This document shows, piece by piece, positions 7,046 through 62,191 of a DNA stretch of 64,000 bases. Origin of the DNA: Undibacterium sp. (lineage in GTDB: Bacteria > Pseudomonadota > Gammaproteobacteria > Burkholderiales > Burkholderiaceae_D). Made by a program: the position numbers and the translations under genes. The stretch spans positions 62,001-126,000 of the forward strand of contig JAUSNO010000016.1 in assembly GCA_030645915.1 (NCBI GenBank). The letters are read 5' to 3'. Within the stretch, counting starts at the first letter, position 1, and each line of letters begins with the position of its first letter. The notes beneath the pieces were generated by a model. That model saw only the letters and a list, made by a program, of their open reading frames with translations. It was not told the origin of the DNA and did not search any database.

Positions 7046-10000
7046 CTATTCGACGAACACCACCGTGCTGCGCGCCGGAATCATGAAGCTTCCCGTTGCG
7101 CTGGTGTAGCTGGCGGTCTTGACGACGCTGTCTGCCGACGAGGCTTGCTGTACCGGATGCAGCGCCAGAGTCTTGCCGCCGAGTGCCGCGACGGAGACCG
7201 TCCTGGCGACCTTGTCTGCGTTAAACAGCACCACCACGCTTCGGTAGTTGGCACCGGTATACAGGGTAGGGCTTTGGCCGTCGATGCGCATGACGATCAC
7301 GCCAGGCGTCTGGCTTGGGCCGACGTTGTAAAACTGCAGGCGGTCCTTGACGTCTTGCGCCGTGCGCAGGCGGAACAGGCTGCTGCTCTTGCGGATGGTC
7401 AGCAGATCCAGAAAGCTGTTACGCGCACTGAGTATGCTGGTCATGCCCGGCTTGATCAAAGGGTTGGTCAGCAGAGGGCGCATCAACGGCCATGTGCCCA
7501 CGTTCTTTTCTGCCGATGGCAAACCTACGCCAAAGTTATTGCTCTGGTAGCTGAAGTCCAGCGCGTTAAACCAGTCGCCGGCGTTGTAGCTGTCCCTATC
7601 CAGCGACTTCGAGCGCAACAGTTCCTGGCCGGCCTGGAAGAACGGCACGCCTTGCGAGAGCATGTTGATGGCGTTGCCCAGATTCTGCACCCGCACGCGG
7701 TCATTGATGCTGGTGGTGTTCGGCATCTTGAAGGCATTGATGTCGAACAGGGCCTGATTGTCATGCGCCTCGACGTAGTTGATGCTCTCTTGCGGCGCGC
7801 CTGTGAAGCCGGCTTTCTGGCCTGCATAGTCAACTTCGCCATTGGGCTTGGTGACGCCGTTGTAATCGGTCAGCAGGTAATCCTTCAGGCTGCCTGACAA
7901 GCCTACGCGAACCTGATCGCTCAGGCGCATCAGGTCGGTCACGGTTTGCGTGCTGCTGGCATTGCGATCGTAGAACACGCCGTTGATGAAGCCTTGTTGC
8001 GAGACCGTGTTGGTATCATCGTCGCAGCAACCGCCGCCGCGCACCGCATCGCGGATGCGATCGTTGAACGCGCCTATGCCGCTGCCCGCCATATTGTTTT
8101 GCCGTGCTTGCAGGAAACGGCTGTCGTTGCTGGTGGCGCCGCTGATGTTCCAGGCTTCGCCATACAGGTAAATGTCGCGCCCTGCTGCGGCATTCACATC
8201 TGCCTGCAGCTTCATCATCAGTGGCAATGGGTGCATGCCCATGATGTCGAAGCGGAAGCTGTCAACCTTGTATTGCGTGGCCCAGGTCTTGACGGAATCG
8301 ATCATCAGCTTGCCCATCATCGCGTTCTCTGAGGCGGTATCGGCGCAGCAGCTGTCGCCCGTAATCTCGCCGATGGCGGTAGTGCGGAAGTAGTAGCCTG
8401 GCACGATTTTGTCGAGCACCGATTTGTCATTTTGCTTGGATGCGGCAGTGTGGTTGAAGACGACGTCCATCGCGACGCGCAAGCCGTTTTCGTGCAGTGC
8501 CTTCATCATGGCGCGGTACTCAAGAATGCGCGTCATGCCGTTGTTGGCATTGGTGGAGTAAGAGCCTTCCGGCGCGGTGTAATGCTGCGGATCGTAACCC
8601 CAGTTGAAGCAATCGGTGTCCTTGGTGGCGGCGACGGTGGCTTGCTGGGTTTCCGAGTCGGCCGCAGCCGCTGCTATGTTAGGGGTGACGCAGCCGGTTT
8701 CATTGATACTGGCGATGTCGAAAGTCGGCAGCAGGTGGATGTGCGTCATGCCGGCCTGCGCCAGTGCCTTCAGATGCATCATGCCGTTGGATGTCGTATC
8801 GGTGAAGGCCAAAAATTTACCTTGATGTGACGCTGGCACGGTAGAGTCGCTGACGCTGAAATCGCGCATATGCAACTCGTACAGCGTGATGTCGGTGGGG
8901 TGTGCCAATGCCGGTATCGCATGGCTATCCCAGCCCGCCGGTTTGCTCGCCGCACTGGCCAGGTTGGCCAAAAAGCTGCGTTTGCTATTGGCATTCAAAC
9001 TCACTGAATACGGATCGGTGATCTCATTGGTGACGACCTTGTTGTCGGCCCAGCGCGAGAAGACATTCACGCTAAACGTGTAGTAGGCGACGTTGCTTCT
9101 GGCCGCGTTGGCATCGGTATAGCGCCAGACACCGGTGTCGCTATCTTCAACCATATCGACCGTGGTCTTGACTGTCGTATCGGCGTCGGCATAGAAATTG
9201 AGTTTGACCGATTTTGCGGTCGGCGCCCACACCCGGATGGTCGGTACGCCTGCGTTATCAAATGAAGGGCCGAGGATGGTATTGGCCGCTGCAGTGGCGT
9301 ACAGGGAATCGAGCACGTTGGCAGTCTGGACCGAGGTGGCGTTGCTCAATGCACCGCTGGCATCAAACTGCGCCAGTACCAACTGACCTTTGAGCCTGGT
9401 CTTGGCACTTGCCGCATCGCTTGCATTAAGTATTAAGGCGAGAGCGGTTTTCAGGTGTGGGTATTTGCTTTGCAACGCAGCCGGGAGGCCGGCGCTGTCT
9501 ATGCTGACATCATAGCTGCCATCGGCGCCCAGAATGGTCGTGCCGCTGCCGCTCATGTTGCCATTGATCGCGTAGAACAACTTGTAGCTGCCGCTTGCCG
9601 CAACGTTAGGCCATGCCAGTGTAGTGGCCGTCATCCAGTAAGCCGAGGCCTCGCCCAGCTTGGCCGGTGAGATCACCGGAATCTTGTCATAGATAGTGCA
9701 ATCGGACGGCGCTAACCAAATCTCCTGGCCTGCCGTGGCGATATTGGCGTTGAAGGTTTTTTCCTGGTCGTTGCCGCAGTTTTTATTGCCGTTGCCATCG
9801 GTCACCAGAAACTTGATCGAGCTCGCCGCAGGATCGACCGGGATATCCGTGTAGCCGCCGAACTTATCTGTTTTGGAAAACATGAAGCGGCCGGTGATCC
9901 AGGCCGGGCTAGGTACCTTAGGCCCGGACCAGGAAAACACGCCCCAGTTGTAAGCGTCATTCTGGCTGGCGTGGTAATGCACGCGCAAGTTGCCGGCGGC

Positions 10001-11033: not shown

Positions 11034-13112
11034 TTACCAGATCGTGGTTCTCTTTTCTGGTGCCACAAACATCTTGTCACCGGCCTTCACGCCAAACGCT
11101 GAATAAAACTCAGGCAGGTTGGTCAGTGGCCCATTGCCGCGGAATGCCGATGGTGAATGCGGATCGGTGGCGATCAGGCGTATCGCTTCTGCATCGCGCG
11201 CCTTGCCGCGCCAGACTTGTGCCCAGCCCATGAACAGGCGCTGGTTGCCGGTGTAGCCATCCAGCACCGGTGCAGGTTTGCCACCCAGTGAGATTTGATA
11301 TGCCTTGTAGGCGATCGCCAGGCCGGAATTGTCGGCAATATTTTCACCTAAAGTCAGCGCGCCGTTGAGTTGGTAGCCGGGCAGCGGGCTGTAGGCGTTG
11401 TATTGCGCTACCAGTGCGCCAGCGAGTTTGCCGAAGTTGGCTTTGTCGTCTGCGGTCCACCAGTCACGCAGATTGCCGTCACCATCGGATTGGCTGCCGG
11501 AATCATCAAAGCCGTGGCTGATTTCGTGGCCGATGACGGCACCGATGCCGCCGTAGTTAACCGCATCGTCTGCCAGGGCGTTAAAGAACGGCGGTTGCAA
11601 GATCGCGGCCGGGAAGACGATTTCGTTCTGGCGTGAGTTGTAATACGCGTTGACGGTTTGCGGGCTCATGCCCCATTCGCTGCGATCGACCGGCTTGCCC
11701 AATTTATTCAATTGTCTTTGGTTGGCCACTTCGCGGCCGCGCATGATATTGCCGACCAGATCATCCTTGGCGATAACGAGTTTGCTGTAATCGCGCCACT
11801 TGTCCGGATAGCCGATCTTGGGCGTGAACTTGGATAATTTGGCCAACGCTTCTTTCTTGGTGTCGGCGCTCATCCAGCTTAAGGTTTCTATGCTTTGCTT
11901 GTAAGCGAGCATCAGGTTATTCACCAATGCCTGCATGCGGGCTTTGTTTTCAGCAGGGAAATGCTTTTCTACATACAGTTGCCCCAGCGCTTCAGACAAG
12001 CCTTCTTCCACCCTGGCGACGCCACGCTTCCAGCGCGCCTGGTTCGTCGGGATGCCGCGCAAGGTCACGCTGGAGAAAGCAAAATCCTGATCGACAAAAC
12101 GCTTGCTGAGGTAGGGCGCGTAGGCGCTCAATACCTGCCATTTGAAATAGGCTTTCCATGCATCGATAGGGGTAGCCTCCATCACTTTTGCCAGGCCGCT
12201 GACAAAGCTTGGCTGGCGCACCACGACGTAATCCATTTTGCCGCCAGTGCCAGCCGCGGCGAAATAAGCAGACCAGTCAAAATCAGGCAGCAACTCATTG
12301 AGCTTGGCCAGCTCTAGCTTGTTGTAGGTCTTGACCGGGTTGCGGTTCTCTACCTTGCTCCACTGAATTTTCGCCAATTCTGTTTCCAGCGCGAGGATAG
12401 CGGCGGCGGTTTTATCCGCGTCTTTTTGCCCGCTCATCGTCAGCATGGCCTCGATGTGTTTAAGGTAGGCATCACGATAACCCTTGAGCTTGGCATCGTC
12501 TTTTAAATAGTAATCACGGTCAGGTAAACCCAGCCCGCCCTGGCTGACGTAGACCGCGTAGCGACTGGAATCCTTCGCGTCTTGCCCGACACCAGATTGC
12601 ACCGGCAAGGAGACGCCAAGCTTGGCCAATTGCGCCATCAACGCCGGCAACTCAGATTTTTTGGTGACGGCATCGATGCGCGCAAAATCGGCCTGCAAAG
12701 GGCTGATATCCAAAGCCTCGGCACGCGCCTCATCCATAAAACTGTTGTACAGGTCGGCGATTTTTTGTTGATTCGAACCCGGGGTCAACTTGGTGCTGGT
12801 GGCCAGGGTTTTGATGATGGCGTGCGAGCGTTGCTCGGACAAATCACGCAACTGATCAAACGCCCCAAAGCGCGCACGGTCTGCCGGAATCTCGGTGGTG
12901 GCTAACCATTTACCCGACATGAACTGAAAAAAATCATCCTGCGGCCGCACGTTCTTGTCCAGCCATTGCAGATCAAGGCCAGAAACCGTTTTGCTAGCGG
13001 CCTTGGCCGATGCCGATGTCGATGCCGGCGCAGGGGATTCGGCGAAGGCAAAGTTGGCGATGCCGGTTGAACATAGTGCAGTGACTGCAAGGGAAATAAA
13101 AGAGCGACGCAT
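11034..13112 (-). CDS. pepO: M13 family zinc metallopeptidase (neprilysin/PepO-like)
   Basis: A 692-residue exported zinc peptidase of the M13 family, which cleaves oligopeptides up to a few kDa. A signal peptide (about residues 1-25, ending ANFAFAES) is followed by the M13 N-terminal domain (about 45-425) and the peptidase domain. Zinc ligands and catalytic Glu are in VIGHEISHGFDD (HExxH) and the third ligand is in LGENIADNSG (ExxxD). The start at 13112 is preferred over 13154 because AAGGA lies eight bases upstream and the signal peptide starts there. It is a single-gene unit with its own terminator. The symbol is by family resemblance. Confidence 0.92.
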   Translation of the reverse strand: MRRSFISLAVTALCSTGIANFAFAESPAPASTSASAKAASKTVSGLDLQWLDKNVRPQDDFFQFMSGKWLATTEIPADRARFGAFDQLRDLSEQRSHAIIKTLATSTKLTPGSNQQKIADLYNSFMDEARAEALDISPLQADFARIDAVTKKSELPALMAQLAKLGVSLPVQSGVGQDAKDSSRYAVYVSQGGLGLPDRDYYLKDDAKLKGYRDAYLKHIEAMLTMSGQKDADKTAAAILALETELAKIQWSKVENRNPVKTYNKLELAKLNELLPDFDWSAYFAAAGTGGKMDYVVVRQPSFVSGLAKVMEATPIDAWKAYFKWQVLSAYAPYLSKRFVDQDFAFSSVTLRGIPTNQARWKRGVARVEEGLSEALGQLYVEKHFPAENKARMQALVNNLMLAYKQSIETLSWMSADTKKEALAKLSKFTPKIGYPDKWRDYSKLVIAKDDLVGNIMRGREVANQRQLNKLGKPVDRSEWGMSPQTVNAYYNSRQNEIVFPAAILQPPFFNALADDAVNYGGIGAVIGHEISHGFDDSGSQSDGDGNLRDWWTADDKANFGKLAGALVAQYNAYSPLPGYQLNGALTLGENIADNSGLAIAYKAYQISLGGKPAPVLDGYTGNQRLFMGWAQVWRGKARDAEAIRLIATDPHSPSAFRGNGPLTNLPEFYSAFGVKAGDKMFVAPEKRTTIW

Positions 13113-13548
13113 GCTTGTTTCCTTAGTAGGTGGGAAGTAAGGTGGGACGTACAACGTTCAAGACACAATAATCGAAACACGAGAACACGGGCATCAGACG
13201 CCAGGACGCCGAAAGAGTTCATATCATAAACAAAATACGGAAATATTTTTTCTTTTTATGAAAATCAATGTCTCATTTTTAATCATGAGGCGGCGCCGCA
13301 GCGAGTCATGTGAAGCGGGTGTCACGCGGTATTTAGGGATTGCTGTTTGATTGGCAGAAATGATCGGAAAAGTTGACTTCAAGATTTATTTCTATTTTGC
13401 TAATATAGTTGGTAGAATGAAAAACGATCCCTGCATTCTTTTTTCGATTTGCTTATGCTGGGAATGTGAACGATATCGCACCTTTAAAATTTATTTATCG
13501 GCGTGCGCGCCTTTCAATTCGACGTTGCACCCGTAATCAAAAGCTCCC
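13113..13548. other. AT-rich divergent gap upstream of the SEFIR gene
   Basis: No gene is supported here. The stretch separates the divergent peptidase and SEFIR genes and becomes AT-rich from about 13220. An extended -10 candidate, TGCTAATAT (13398-13406), could start the SEFIR message; the nearest TTGACT (13373-13378) is 22 bases away, too far for a normal -35. Confidence 0.4.
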
Positions 13549-14994
13549 ATGATCCCATTCATCACACCAAAGCTTTTCGTCTCTTACAGCTGGTCCTCAC
13601 CTACTCATGAGCAGTGGGTGCTTGATCTTGCGACGGAGGTAAACAACTCAGGCGTCGAGGTGATTCTTGACAAGTGGGATCTTCGCGAGGGTCATGATTC
13701 TGTGGCCTTTATGGAAAAAATGGTCACCGATTCTTCGATTACAAAGGTATTGATGATTTGCGATCGGACATACGCGGCGAAGGCGGATGGTCGAGCCGGC
13801 GGAGTTGGAACCGAAACACAGATTATTTCGCGCGAGGTCTACGAGAAACAGTTGCAAGACAAATTTGTTGCTGTCGTCGCCGAGAAAGACGACGCAGGCA
13901 AGCCGTACCTTCCCACTTACTACAAATCTCGCATTTACATTGACCTGAGCGAATCAGACCGCTATGCGGAGGGGTTTGAAAGGCTCTTGCGATGGATTTT
14001 TGACAAACCAATCTATGTCAAGCCTGAAATAGGGAAACCGCCGTCATTTCTGACTGATTGCACAGTCCCGCTACTCGGAACCTCCGCACTTGCCAAGCGA
14101 GTGATTGAAGGATTGAAGAATGACAAGTCATACACACGCGGCGCATTTGACGAGTATCTTTCACTGTTCTCCACCAATCTTGAAAGGTTTCGGTTGTCAG
14201 GCAATGAAGGCGAACAGGACGATCGAGTAGTCAAGTCGATCGAAGATTTCATTCCTTCACGAAACGAGTTTCTTGGCATCCTAATTACGCTTTCTCAGTA
14301 CGGCGATGTCGCAGACTACGGAGCAAGAATCCATCGTTTCTTCGAGTCTCTCATCCCGTACTTCAGTCGCCCACCTGAAGTGAATTCGTGGAACGAGACC
14401 GATTTCGATAACTTCAAGTTTGTGATCCATGAGCTGTTCCTTTACACACTTGCCATCCTGCTTCGCGGAGAACATTTTGACGCAGTAGTGCTACTTTTAT
14501 CGCAGCCCTACTACGTACCCAGCAATTCCGATCACGGAAAAAATGCGACTGTTACCTACGCCGTCTTCCGAGACTATCTGGCATCGCTTGAAGTCCGAAA
14601 TAAGCGCTTGGCCTCACGTCGGCTTTCGCTGAGGGCAGATCTACTGGAACAGCGTTCGAAGACAACTGGAATTACCTTTCAACAAGTCATGCAAGCCGAC
14701 TTCATCTGTTTTCTCAGGGCTGATTTATTGCACAAAAGTCGCTACGATAATTGGTTCCCAGAAACGTTACTGTACGCGGCGCGTCACCATGGCCCATTCG
14801 AGGTTTTCGCTCGCTCCGTATCGAAGTCGTACCTCAGTCGAATCCTCCCGCTGCTAGGAGTCTCAAACTTGGCCGAATTGCAGAAAAAATTGGTAGAATA
14901 TTCTGCCGACCGGAACAGCATCCCACGCTGGGAGTTTCAGTCTTTCAGTCCATCCGGTTTGCTGGGGATCGAGCAACTTGGAACGCAGGTCTAA
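13549..14994 (+). CDS. SEFIR/TIR-like domain protein, candidate anti-phage effector
   Basis: A 481-residue protein with an N-terminal SEFIR domain (about residues 6-155), a relative of TIR. Box 1 reads KLFVSYSW (8-15), followed by LDKWDLREGHD (40-50) and GGVGTETQIIS (84-94), a pattern I recall from bacterial SEFIR proteins. Glu89 is a candidate catalytic residue if it cleaves NAD+. Residues about 175-481 look helical and match nothing I know; they may sense infection or oligomerise. There is no signal peptide or membrane segment. ATG 13549 is the first start after an in-frame stop at 13534, but no clear ribosome site is seen. It stands alone between housekeeping genes with repeats downstream, as expected of a transferred single-gene defence module. 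Bacterial SEFIR proteins are reported anti-phage; that role here is inference. Confidence 0.75.
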   Translation: MIPFITPKLFVSYSWSSPTHEQWVLDLATEVNNSGVEVILDKWDLREGHDSVAFMEKMVTDSSITKVLMICDRTYAAKADGRAGGVGTETQIISREVYEKQLQDKFVAVVAEKDDAGKPYLPTYYKSRIYIDLSESDRYAEGFERLLRWIFDKPIYVKPEIGKPPSFLTDCTVPLLGTSALAKRVIEGLKNDKSYTRGAFDEYLSLFSTNLERFRLSGNEGEQDDRVVKSIEDFIPSRNEFLGILITLSQYGDVADYGARIHRFFESLIPYFSRPPEVNSWNETDFDNFKFVIHELFLYTLAILLRGEHFDAVVLLLSQPYYVPSNSDHGKNATVTYAVFRDYLASLEVRNKRLASRRLSLRADLLEQRSKTTGITFQQVMQADFICFLRADLLHKSRYDNWFPETLLYAARHHGPFEVFARSVSKSYLSRILPLLGVSNLAELQKKLVEYSADRNSIPRWEFQSFSPSGLLGIEQLGTQV

Positions 14995-15049: not shown

Positions 15050-15142
15050 GCATGTTGAGCTTCCAAATAGCGACTCCCTGCTAATTCCACGTCCAACTAT
15101 CACCCTATCTATTGATAGTTGATAAAAATTTCAACATCGACC

Positions 15143-15245
15143 CCGCCACCACGCACTAGGCGGAGCGCAATCCCCATGCGCCTTCCAGGGCAGGCAGCCG
15201 GCAAACCCGCGTGGATAGGGCGCTCCCCCTAGTGCGTGGTGGCGG
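15143..15245. repeat. Palindromic repeat family, copy 2 (compound)
   Basis: Outer perfect 17-bp arms CCGCCACCACGCACTAG (15143-15159) and CTAGTGCGTGGTGGCGG (15229-15245) enclose a second imperfect family element (GCGCAATCCCCATGCGCC left, AACCCGCGTGGATAGGGCGC right). It lies in the convergent gap between the SEFIR gene and livF, 104 bp from the livF stop. No gene is seen in 14995-15348. Confidence 0.8.
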
Positions 15246-15348
15246 TATCGATTATTGAGTTTTACTTTGAATAAGACCGTCATCCGCCATCGGCAGGGCG
15301 CAAAGGCTTCTGTCTATTGCGCCTTACCGATTGCGGATTTTCACTCAA

Positions 15349-16077
15349 TTAATGCTGCGTACCACCACCCAGGTAGGCGGCCTTCACCGCCGGATCATTC
15401 TGCAAACTTGCTGCCGGGCCGTGTACGGAGATTTTTCCATTCTCCAGCACATAGCCGTAGTCGGCCACCGCTAAGGCCGCTGCGGCAAACTGCTCGACCA
15501 GCAGCATGGTCATGCCTTCTTGCTTGAGGCGCTCGATGATGCGGAACACTTCATCGACCAGGATAGGCGCCAGCCCCATTGATGGCTCGTCGAGCAGCAC
15601 GACATCGGGGTTGAGCATGACGGCGCGCGCCATGGCCAGCATTTGCTGCTCGCCACCGGATAGCGTGCCGGCCAGCTGGTTGCGCCTTTCTTTCAGGCGC
15701 GGGAATAATTCCATCGCCTTTTGCAGGTCGTGGTCGATATCGCCGCGTGGCCGCGAGCGGGTAAAGCGCGGGAAAGCGCCCAGCAGCAGATTGTCGGTGA
15801 CCGACATGGTGGCGAACACGCGGCGGCCTTCGGGCGAGTGCGCCAGGCCGGCGCGGGCGATGCGATGCGAATCGAGACCCGTGACGTCGTTACCCGCCAG
15901 CATGACCGTGCCCTGTACCGGCTTGATCATGCCCGAGATGGCGCGCATGGTGGTGGTCTTGCCGGCGCCGTTGGAGCCGATCAGGGTGACTACCTTGCCT
16001 TTTGGCACATCCATGGAGATACCATGCAAGACGGCGACTTTGCCGTAGGCGGCATGCAGATTATTAATTTTTAGCAT
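15349..16077 (-). CDS. livF: Branched-chain amino-acid ABC transporter ATPase
   Basis: A 242-residue ABC ATPase of the LivF type, one of the two nucleotide-binding subunits energising uptake of leucine, isoleucine, valine or related compounds. Walker A is GSNGAGKT (about residues 34-41), the signature is LSGGEQQ (about 139-145), and Walker B is VVLLDEPSMGLAP (about 159-171). It is the last gene of a minus-strand livK-livH-livMG-livF operon, 11 bp after the fused permease-ATPase. Substrate class is from family context; exact specificity cannot be read. Confidence 0.94.
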   Translation of the reverse strand: MLKINNLHAAYGKVAVLHGISMDVPKGKVVTLIGSNGAGKTTTMRAISGMIKPVQGTVMLAGNDVTGLDSHRIARAGLAHSPEGRRVFATMSVTDNLLLGAFPRFTRSRPRGDIDHDLQKAMELFPRLKERRNQLAGTLSGGEQQMLAMARAVMLNPDVVLLDEPSMGLAPILVDEVFRIIERLKQEGMTMLLVEQFAAAALAVADYGYVLENGKISVHGPAASLQNDPAVKAAYLGGGTQH

Positions 16078-16088
16078 GAGTGATCTCC

Positions 16089-18044
16089 TTAGGCCGTGGT
16101 GGTTTCATGGGTAAGTTCGTCGCTGACGCTACCACCCAGATAAGCTTCGATCACTTTAGGATCTGCCTGTACCGCTGCCGGTTTACCCTCTGCAATTTTT
16201 TGGCCAAAATCGAGCACGGTCACGGTATCGCAAATCGACATCACGACATCCATGTGGTGCTCGATCAGGATGATGGTAATGCTGTGCTCGCGTATCTTGC
16301 GGATGATGGCGATCAGTTCCTTGATGTCTGGCGCGGTCAGGCCTGCCGCCGGTTCATCTAGCAAGAGCAATTGCGGATTCAATGCCAGCGCACGGCCGAT
16401 TTCCAGCAAGCGCTGTTTGCCGTAAGGCAGATTGCGCGCCTCTTCATTGGCCAGATCACCCAGGCCAACAAAATTGAGGATGCTGGCAGCGCGCAGGCGG
16501 GCGGCTTTTTCTTCGCGCAGATAGCGTGGGGTATGCAGCATCACATCGAGCACATTGCTGCGGAAGGTGTGGTGCAAGCCGACCAGCACGTTTTCGGTCG
16601 AGGTCATTTCGCCGAATAGCTGCACGTTCTGGAAGGTACGTGCGACACCGCCCAAGGCGATGGCCGATGGCGTGTCGCCAGAAATCACGTGGCCGCAAAA
16701 CTCGACTTCACCCGCCGTCGGTTTATAAATGCCGGTCAGCACGTTCATCATGGTGCTCTTGCCAGAGCCGTTCGGCCCGATCAGGCCGTGTACCGTGCCT
16801 TTGTTGATCTGCAGGTCTACCTGGTTAAGTGCCTTCAAGCCGCCGAACTGCATCAATATTTGTTTGGCGTTGAGCAATGCACCGCTGCTGGTATAGACCG
16901 CTTTGACAATGGCGCTGTCATCGTCGGCGGCAATCTTGATTTCCTTGGCGATCAGATGTTTGGGGCCTTTGCCAAACAAGCCGTTGACGAATCCGACTAT
17001 GCCATCCTGCAAGTAGTAGACCACGAACAGGGTCATCAGACCGAAGACTGTCAGGCGCCAGTCGGTGATGTTTTCCAGCTTGTAGGAGAACATCGCCATC
17101 GCTACCGTTGCCACCACAGGCACCGCCAGTTCACGCACTGTCTTGCGTTTTTTGGCCAGCGTGATGCCAGCTGCAATGACACCGATGACGGCAGCAGCAG
17201 TGGCGATCTTGCGGAACAGTTCTATATCTGCCAGCAAGGACGGCAGCATGACCACGATCATCGCGCCTATCAATGAGCCGCTGCGTGTCTTGCGCCCACC
17301 CATGATCACGGCCAGCAAGAACATGATTGTCAGCTCGAAGTTGTAGGTATTCGGTGAAATATATTCTTCTGAATACGCGTACAGGCTGCCCGCCATACCT
17401 GCCAGCGCAGCGCTGATGACGAAGGCATATACCTTGTAGCGATACACCGAGACACCCATGCAATCGGAGGCGATCGGGCTGTCACGCAGCGCCTGAAAGG
17501 CGCGCCCCAGATGCGAGCGCAATATACGGTGCACCACGATCATCGCCAGCACCATCATCACCGCCACCAGATAGAAATAACCGACTTCGCCGAGTTTTTG
17601 GCCGAACAAGACCGGCTTGCTCAGCTTGATGCCCATCGGGCCTTCGGTCAGGAAGGTCATTTCATTGATCAGGATCTGGATGATGGTACCGAAGGCGAGC
17701 GTCACCATCGCCAGATAAGGCCCGGTCACGCGCAAGGCCGGCAAGGCCAATAAGGCGCCGAATACGGCAGTGACCGCGATACTGGCGGGCAGCGCCAGAA
17801 AAATGGGCAGGCCCAGCTTGAAGTAAAACACCCCGGTGGTGTACGAGCCGATGCCAAATAAACCGGCATGACCTAATGACACCTGGCCGGTATAGCCGAC
17901 CACGATATCGAGACCAAACAGCAAGATGGCGTAGATCAGGATGGTTTCTGCCAGATGCAGATAGTAGGGGTTACCCAATGCGATAGGCATCAGGCCTAAT
18001 GCGGCAATCCCTGCTATGGAAAGAATTAAGTTTTTTTTGCTCAT
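16089..18044 (-). CDS. livM-livG: Fused branched-chain amino-acid permease LivM and ATPase LivG
   Basis: A 651-residue fusion. Residues about 1-300 are a LivM-type permease with many membrane segments (IYAILLFGLDIVVGYTGQVS, then GHAGLFGIGSY). Further hydrophobic segments run to about 355. Residues about 390-645 are a LivG-type ABC ATPase with Walker A GPNGSGKS, signature-like LPYGKQRLLEIG and Walker B LLLLDEPAAGL, ending in the family-typical C-terminal tail. LivM and LivG are normally separate genes; the frame is open across the junction. The fusion fixes one permease to one ATPase, while LivH and LivF stay separate. It starts 9 bp after livH ends. Confidence 0.93.
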   Translation of the reverse strand: MSKKNLILSIAGIAALGLMPIALGNPYYLHLAETILIYAILLFGLDIVVGYTGQVSLGHAGLFGIGSYTTGVFYFKLGLPIFLALPASIAVTAVFGALLALPALRVTGPYLAMVTLAFGTIIQILINEMTFLTEGPMGIKLSKPVLFGQKLGEVGYFYLVAVMMVLAMIVVHRILRSHLGRAFQALRDSPIASDCMGVSVYRYKVYAFVISAALAGMAGSLYAYSEEYISPNTYNFELTIMFLLAVIMGGRKTRSGSLIGAMIVVMLPSLLADIELFRKIATAAAVIGVIAAGITLAKKRKTVRELAVPVVATVAMAMFSYKLENITDWRLTVFGLMTLFVVYYLQDGIVGFVNGLFGKGPKHLIAKEIKIAADDDSAIVKAVYTSSGALLNAKQILMQFGGLKALNQVDLQINKGTVHGLIGPNGSGKSTMMNVLTGIYKPTAGEVEFCGHVISGDTPSAIALGGVARTFQNVQLFGEMTSTENVLVGLHHTFRSNVLDVMLHTPRYLREEKAARLRAASILNFVGLGDLANEEARNLPYGKQRLLEIGRALALNPQLLLLDEPAAGLTAPDIKELIAIIRKIREHSITIILIEHHMDVVMSICDTVTVLDFGQKIAEGKPAAVQADPKVIEAYLGGSVSDELTHETTTA

Positions 18045-18053
18045 GTTGATCTC

Positions 18054-18944
18054 TTATACTTTTTTGATCGCGGCTTTGCCGAACAGGCCTGCGGGTTTGA
18101 TCGCCAATACCAGCAACAGCAGCACCAGGCCTGGCACTTCCTTGTAGCCGGTGGAGATATAAAATCCGGTCAGTGTCTCGGCGATACCGAGGATCAGGCC
18201 GCCGACGACGGCACCCATGCCTGAAGTTAAGCCACCGATAATGGCGACCGCAAACGCCTTTAATCCCAATGCAGAGCCCATCGTTGCACCTGTCAGCGTC
18301 AGCGGTGCCACCAGCACACCGGCAAACGCTGCCGTGGCAGACGACAGCGCATACGAGAAGGTGATGACCATGCGGGTATTGATACCCATCAGGCCGGCGG
18401 CATCACGGTCGTTTGACGTTGCCACCACGGCCTTGCCATAAATCGATTTGCGGTTGAACAGCTCTACCGCCATCATCATCGCCAGCGCACCGGCCACGAC
18501 CACTACCTGCATCGCCTGCACGTTGGCGCCGAGCACCTGAAATGGCGCTGCGGACAAAGGCGAAGGGAAGGTCAGGTCATCCTTGCCCCAGATATTCTCT
18601 GCGACATTCTTGAAGATAATCGCCAGGGCGATGGTTGACATGATCCAGCCAAATTCCGATTTGATCTTGATCGCCGGGCGTACGCCTATCCATTCCACCA
18701 CGACACCTTGCAGGGCGCCAAAAACGATAACGATAGGGATCATCAGCCAGTAATTCATATACGGGCCGCCATGAATAGTGCCGACCAGGCTGAGACCCAC
18801 CAGGGCGCCAAGCATCAGCGATTCACCCTGACCGAAATTGAGTGTGCCGGAAGTGGCGAAGGTGAGTTGGTAGCCGAAGGCAATGACAGCGTAAATCATG
18901 CCGAGCGCGATACCGCTGAATACAAGCTGTAACAAAATGTCCAT
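18054..18944 (-). CDS. livH: Branched-chain amino-acid ABC transporter permease
   Basis: A 296-residue inner-membrane permease of the LivH type, with about eight hydrophobic segments. Typical family motifs are LNFGQGESLMLGA near residues 36-48 and the ending AIKPAGLFGK. It forms the transmembrane pore with the LivM part of the next gene. It lies second in the operon, 159 bp after livK; that gap holds a hairpin. Confidence 0.94.
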   Translation of the reverse strand: MDILLQLVFSGIALGMIYAVIAFGYQLTFATSGTLNFGQGESLMLGALVGLSLVGTIHGGPYMNYWLMIPIVIVFGALQGVVVEWIGVRPAIKIKSEFGWIMSTIALAIIFKNVAENIWGKDDLTFPSPLSAAPFQVLGANVQAMQVVVVAGALAMMMAVELFNRKSIYGKAVVATSNDRDAAGLMGINTRMVITFSYALSSATAAFAGVLVAPLTLTGATMGSALGLKAFAVAIIGGLTSGMGAVVGGLILGIAETLTGFYISTGYKEVPGLVLLLLVLAIKPAGLFGKAAIKKV

Positions 18945-24558: not shown

Positions 24559-24629
24559 GCCAGCACGCAATGTTGATGCGCCTTGCAGAGCAACATGGCT
24601 GGAAACCCGCATGGATAGTGCGCTCTGGC
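24559..24629. repeat. Palindromic repeat family, copy 4 (decayed)
   Basis: The left half reads GCCAGCACGCAATGTTGATG and the right half AAACCCGCATGGATAGTGCG then CTCTGGC. The halves pair only partly. The right half carries GGCTGGAAACCCGC, also found in copy 6 and, inverted, in copy 7. It lies in the divergent gap between the NHL-M23 gene and the YbiB-like gene. Confidence 0.7.
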
Positions 24630-30007: not shown

Positions 30008-30068
30008 CACGCAACATCCATGCGCCTTGCAGGCCAGGCAGGCTGGAGAGGCGCATGGGGATTGCGTG
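30008..30068. repeat. Palindromic repeat family, copy 5
   Basis: Left arm CACGCAACATCCATGCGCC, right arm GGCGCATGGGGATTGCGTG; two mismatched pairs within 19 bp. Both halves carry the GCGCC variant in place of GCGGG. It lies between the DUF1499 gene and the single-span protein gene. Confidence 0.8.
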
Positions 30069-62118: not shown

Positions 62119-62191
62119 GCCCATCACGCACTATCCATGCGGGTTTCCAGCCGCTCTGGCCTGTAGCCCGCATGGATAGTGCGTGATGGGC
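62119..62191. repeat. Palindromic repeat family, copy 7
   Basis: Perfect 25-bp arms (62119-62143 and 62167-62191) around a 23-base loop; the left arm contains CACGCACTATCCATGCGGG. The loop side carries GGTTTCCAGCC, the inverse of the GGCTGGAAACC found in copies 4 and 6. It lies between the HerA-like and DMT transporter genes. Confidence 0.9.

Follow-up and report, generated by a model that had tools for sequence, protein, structure and literature searches.

A bSEFIR gene of Undibacterium sp. and the possible sharing of its C-terminal domain with AAA_14-DUF4143 proteins

The window analysed in this work, i.e., a whole stretch of 64,000 nucleotides of Undibacterium sp. (assembly GCA_030645915.1, contig JAUSNO010000016.1, positions 62,001 to 126,000), harbors at 13549..14994, on the + strand, an open reading frame (ORF) with an ATG start and 481 codons plus the stop, whose product consists of an N-terminal SEFIR domain and a helical C-terminal domain (CTD, or tail). 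The ORF is real and, judging from its sequence, it is an ordinary member of the already described single-gene bSEFIR family and not a new system. It is very likely that the gene represents an anti-phage member of this family, probably acquired horizontally, in which the CTD would sense the phage and the SEFIR domain would consume NAD+, an action attributed to it by family membership. What is new here is that sequence comparisons suggest the presence of the same tail on AAA_14-DUF4143 proteins, a modest lead coming from one genome.

Identification and Family Assignment

The stop-to-stop frame has just 485 codons, and ATG 13549 is therefore the sole plausible start. The initial annotation, based on the sequence alone, had described an N-terminal SEFIR-like domain with the motifs KLFVSYSW and GGVGTETQIIS. 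Both motifs are found in the 481-aa protein and the domain is recognized by Pfam as SEFIR (PF08357, E 9.9e-17, residues 8-130) and as TIR_2 (E 1.9e-15, residues 10-147), no family beyond these two being listed at E <= 10. This SEFIR/TIR domain, a predicted NADase effector, embraces residues 8-154 (13570..14010, + strand); its structure matches include 5y8e and 5y8f, with 42-43% identity over 143-153 aligned residues. It is followed by a probable flexible linker (residues 158-171, 14020..14061, + strand; predicted local distance difference test, pLDDT, under 50) and by the all-helical CTD (residues 172-481, 14062..14991, + strand), a candidate sensor or regulatory module whose model is confident (pLDDT 91.2 and predicted template modelling score, pTM, 0.92 for residues 170-481).

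A profile search for the CTD retrieved nothing convincing from the PDB, and the only NCBIfam match for the C-terminus was sub-threshold (E 0.036). The earlier statement that the C-terminus has no recognized domain holds for Pfam and NCBIfam but not for PADLOC, whose bSEFIR model (PDLC03957) aligns in a single stretch residues 6-480 with positions 38-385 of the 412 of the profile (E 3.3e-117, 390.8 bits). Since the model spans residues 6-480 unbroken, the tail belongs to the described family, and this full-length match does away with the suggestion that the SEFIR system might be undescribed. The family represented by PDLC03957 was reportedly described in Millman 2022. Passages of several papers (PMC12774641, PMC12322248, PMC11084316, PMC11559045, and PMC12926258) describe SEFIR as NAD+-depleting and, in part, as abortive, and in PMC12322248 (its reference 16) and PMC12926258 this NAD+-depleting system is credited to Millman 2022; the literature search found nothing under the name bSEFIR.

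Conservation and Proposed Mechanism

The bSEFIR proteins were compared in an alignment of 76 rows, composed of the query, 23 of the 120 listed homologues, 48 of the 59 loci from named genomes, and 4 of the 10 viral loci; the 11 genome loci left out were three intact close relatives and eight broken or partial ones. Glu89 (codon 13813..13815, + strand), the candidate catalytic glutamate, is invariant in all the 76 rows. The same is true, among others, of four positions of the tail, Glu295, Trp402, Pro404, and Phe420, the last three of which are embedded in the CTD core motif W402-x-P404 ... F420-x-R422 (14752..14814, + strand).

If the protein acts as other members of its family, the CTD would detect a phage product upon infection; for one studied SEFIR system a passage of the Discussion of PMC10884400 reports recognition of the major capsid protein, and a table of a review (PMC10286901) places SEFIR among the systems bypassed via mutations in phage structural proteins. 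The SEFIR domains would then associate, building an active site around Glu89, through which NAD+ would be hydrolysed, and the infected cell would halt ahead of phage release, with an abortive outcome.

TIR folds can either produce a signal or deplete NAD+. The SEFIR domain might thus make a cyclic ADP-ribose-like signal for a separate effector, as ThsB does in Thoeris, instead of depleting NAD+ itself, and Foldseek gives a weak match to EcThsB2 (8v6t, E 0.43) that points in this direction. However, PADLOC lists three models for the protein at E <= 10, bSEFIR and two Aga_TIR, and Thoeris is not represented among them; ThsA is not among the 23 PADLOC families matched by the other 42 ORFs of the window, which were read as housekeeping genes; and the homologues show no recurrent neighbour. 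The production of a signal is, on these grounds, very improbable.

Distribution of bSEFIR Genes

Of 7993 scored candidates, at least 2769 are homologues with E <= 0.001, far beyond chance, and the protein database holds a 99% identical protein. The search in the genomes of relatives gave a match in 2 out of 60, i.e., the own genome and one of the 35 same-genus relatives (50% identity), so that the absence from close relatives, proposed with the initial annotation as a check, was largely observed. Since a related gene occurs in just one of the 35 relatives from the genus, the gene of the window can be considered accessory; it was probably acquired horizontally. The scan of named genomes, which was pattern-limited, gave 59 loci out of 82 stretches, including Pseudomonadota, a Microcystis metagenome-assembled genome (MAG), Chloroflexi, Planctomycetes, and Bacillota, together with three archaeal records.

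Matches were also retrieved from plasmids (148 records, eight of which with coverage >= 80%) and from phages (five records; the two with coverage >= 80% are one and the same phage). In Klebsiella phage ST15-OXA48phi14.1 (Peduoviridae; integrase and repressor present), the bSEFIR gene directly adjoins the portal gene; on a Pseudomonas luteola plasmid it is located near P2-type portal, terminase, and capsid genes, and on a Bacillus velezensis plasmid it lies amid small ORFs named YopX/YoqO family and hypothetical. Accessory positions of P2-like phages are defence hotspots. The 47 neighbours from 9 of the 10 viral contigs include portal, integrase, terminase, and HEPN_AbiV families (25 of 65 and 25 of 35 families shown). 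Two viral contigs (L101 and L102) have immediately upstream of bSEFIR an ORF of about 217 aa (7138-7788), which perhaps belongs to the HEPN_AbiV family, matched by two members of the neighbour set. That related genes are carried by phages, plasmids, and viral contigs, and that the gene is not universal in the genus, agrees with the single-gene abortive defence originally proposed, which appears probable.

The neighbour analysis used 114 of the 241 listed ORFs around homologues. The commonest Pfam family is found in only 4 of the 114, and hence no obligate partner is apparent. Strong PADLOC matches among these ORFs are DRT, type I and type II restriction-modification, and PDC-S (25 of 130 families shown); as the 42 other ORFs of the window also match 23 PADLOC families, no enrichment in defence islands is claimed.

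The idea that SEFIR is a non-enzymatic adaptor or scaffold, similar to the SEFIR domains of the animal IL-17 receptor and ACT1, regulating something other than phage defence, has to be confronted with the invariance of Glu89, with the homologues in phage accessory positions, and with the match to the full bSEFIR family model, which together make it very unlikely. That the gene is a decaying remnant without current function is hardly credible: some relatives are indeed broken (stops within the matched frame in 6 of the 59 genome loci), but in this gene the frame of 481 codons is intact and the core residues are conserved, and the database has a 99% identical counterpart.

Some observations weigh against the interpretation of the gene as a horizontally acquired anti-phage bSEFIR. 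Its base composition shows no sign of foreign origin (GC 49.2%; GC at third codon positions 0.551 vs a mean of 0.579 for the window ORFs, standard deviation 0.093), and the 25 of 95 Pfam families shown for the other 42 ORFs of the window look like housekeeping functions and not like a defence island. In the predicted structure, modelling is poor for residues 83-88, which adjoin Glu89, and confidence in the placing of SEFIR relative to the CTD is no more than moderate (pTM 0.65). Lastly, SEFIR activity can be narrow, a Streptococcus system having hit only specific phages within one genus, according to a passage of PMC12322248.

A Second Architecture Sharing the C-Terminal Domain

Two profiles were used, one (A3) of 53 CTDs and the other (A6) of five tails of genome G389. 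The search of 369 same-class genomes with A3 matched eight of them: seven contain bSEFIR or bSEFIR fragments, and the eighth, G389, carries only an AAA_14-DUF4143 form. In G389 there are five A3 matches, in ORFs of 626-728 codons (E 3.5e-9 to 9.0e-7); the bSEFIR model matches 38 genomes, G389 not being among them. With A6, ten matches were obtained in G389, of which nine lie in ORFs of 382-730 codons; the four other genomes of the same order gave none, so that one genome out of five has the second architecture. These nine paralogous ORFs of the 1.6-Mb genome (L135, L137-L140, L148-L151) are all matched by the bSEFIR CTD profile (E <= 9.5e-5) and none of them by the SEFIR profile at E <= 0.001. 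Pfam finds AAA_14 and DUF4143 in eight, while the ninth (L150) reaches the end of its locus and retains just the end of DUF4143. Eight of the nine ORFs have a Walker A motif; in seven the PD-(D/E)XK-like pattern is intact, while one ORF shows a K to R change in it and another a degenerate form. We take DUF4143 to be a member of the PD-(D/E)XK superfamily.

The protein search for AAA_14-DUF4143-CTD retrieved a single protein, P0132, identical over the query, from a MAG named 'Betaproteobacteria bacterium', on the basis of which G389 is called here a betaproteobacterial MAG. The assembly is 85% complete with 1% contamination. The tails of the G389 ORFs are distributed over several contigs and are 25-51% identical to the first one, which speaks against a chimeric assembly.

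In a test that is not independent of the discovery, since the tails were first found with A3 (four of the nine ORFs are outside A6), the hhalign comparison of A3 with A6 gave a probability of 99.2% (E 1.4e-19, 263 columns, 18% identity), and A6 aligned with columns 184-449 of the full-length bSEFIR profile, i.e., with the CTD only. The controls gave E 0.33 (A3 vs the AAA_14-DUF4143 part) and E 0.46 (A3 vs M13 peptidases). In hmmsearch, A3 recognized five out of five tails at E <= 2e-8, with one shuffle listed (E 0.32) out of 2000 shuffles and five reversals. Of the 53 bSEFIR CTDs, the reverse search with A6 recognized 51 with E <= 0.0021 and a further one at 0.035, the CTD of the window gene itself having E 5.4e-5; among the matches listed, no shuffle out of 2120 stood above the CTD at 0.035. 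In an alignment of eight tails (all but L139), Pro404, Phe420, and Ala383 are kept in all eight, Tyr321 and Arg238 in seven, Arg422 in five, Trp402 in four, and Glu295 in one (Asp in six); the positions conserved in both tail types are R238, Y321, A383, P404, and F420.

By eye, the bSEFIR tails seemingly form two groups (alignment A7, e.g., rows L075-L095 vs L044-L070). The top scores of the AAA_14-DUF4143 profile fall on L086, L081, and L088, all in one of the two groups.

From these comparisons the CTD looks portable across two N-terminal types. As it is the constant part across SEFIR and AAA_14-DUF4143 proteins, a sensor or regulatory role is favoured. The sensor/oligomerization function assigned to the C-terminus in the initial annotation is in this way indirectly supported, bearing in mind that oligomerization or autoinhibition would produce the same sharing pattern. 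Against wide portability speaks the database search with residues 165-481, which found 1481 proteins, the best 120 of which display no other CTD partner. Six of these 120 have no SEFIR/TIR Pfam entry; by eye, their sequences begin inside or after SEFIR, and they look 5'-truncated. Four SEFIR-less CTD ORFs (L132, L133, L141, and L167) were also considered as new architectures and rejected, being taken as probable split or broken bSEFIR genes: the genomes of the first two (G140 and G098, respectively) contain parts of SEFIR either immediately upstream or on a different contig, L141 starts close to the contig start, and the L167 locus has SEFIR in a separate ORF.

Beyond G389, AAA_14-DUF4143-CTD was found in none of the 369 same-class genomes, in none of 398 same-phylum genomes, and, by pattern search, in no viral contig; plasmids gave no match to the L138 tail at E <= 0.01, and the literature search found nothing pairing SEFIR with AAA_14. 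This rarity may be partly due to limited search sensitivity.

It is possible, though we would stop short of calling it probable, that the tail of bSEFIR serves as a portable module for phage sensing and is mounted on at least two unrelated effectors, one being the SEFIR NADase and the other an AAA_14 ATPase that carries a PD-(D/E)XK-like DUF4143, and that the latter represents an undescribed single-gene defence family whose paralogues number nine or more in a single small genome of a betaproteobacterium. If one helical module serves both an NAD+-consuming domain and an ATPase/putative nuclease, it is probably the sensing or regulating part; were the tail shared in this way, the AAA_14-DUF4143 proteins would be candidates for phage defence. 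By itself, the window gene is one more bSEFIR, and the shared tail matters more.

Genomic Context

The gene is flanked by ORF 11034-13154 (- strand) and ORF 15349-18944 (- strand), with no other gene between. The adjoining ORFs correspond to an M13 peptidase and to liv genes, as initially annotated; Peptidase_M13 and branched-chain amino acid transporter families appear among the Pfam matches tabulated, without ORF names, for the 42 remaining ORFs of the window. The bSEFIR gene therefore stands alone, with no partner gene alongside, as in single-gene bSEFIR. The AT-rich gap previously noticed before the gene is also real, the GC content being 43% in the windows covering 13000-13749 vs 51.9% across the whole window; in the upstream intergenic region (13223..13548, no strand) promoter-like and terminator-like sites are not above chance.

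The repeats reported after the gene correspond to an inverted repeat with 56-nt arms (15125..15263, no strand), a dispersed palindromic repeat that is a neighbouring feature outside the system. Its RNA fold has -83 kcal/mol (z -9.7 vs shuffles), and Rfam gave no match for it. The palindrome family has 48 matches in the own genome (both strands counted), which is one of the 7 genomes, out of 30 from the same genus, where it occurs; partial copies in the window lie near 24576-24625, 30010-30066, and 62127-62183.

M13 peptidase and LivF matches, paralogues included, are present in 43 out of 43 same-genus genomes. By eye, the two are never side by side in 23 other genomes with LivF at >= 83% identity, and hence there is no clean empty site. 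In four of six relatives (L113-L118), livF (whose end is at 15349 in the window) has directly behind it an ORF of 363-375 codons in convergent orientation. For the ORF in L113, the counterpart in the own genome (75% identity) sits on a different contig, which suggests that the livF flank was rearranged.

Comparison with Known Systems

This gene shares with bSEFIR (PDLC03957) the N-terminal SEFIR, the same C-terminal region, the single-gene arrangement, and a whole-length profile match, differing in its host and in ordinary sequence divergence. The SEFIR domain is in common with 5y8e and 5y8f, structures that contain the SEFIR domain alone. Except for one row, the structure rows of the SPARTA TIR-APAZ protein align to residues 5-155. 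The matches listed in the fold searches with the CTD alone include no APAZ-type chain, an outcome compatible with either the presence or the absence of such a domain. No Argonaute is among the PADLOC matches of the other 42 window ORFs, unlike SPARTA with its adjacent short Argonaute. In Thoeris, the ThsA effector gene adjoins the TIR gene, whereas here the neighbours are the M13 peptidase and liv genes. Finally, the AAA_14-DUF4143 ATP-binding proteins of G389 (P0132 and its paralogues) appear to have the CTD in common with bSEFIR, AAA_14 and DUF4143 taking the place of SEFIR.
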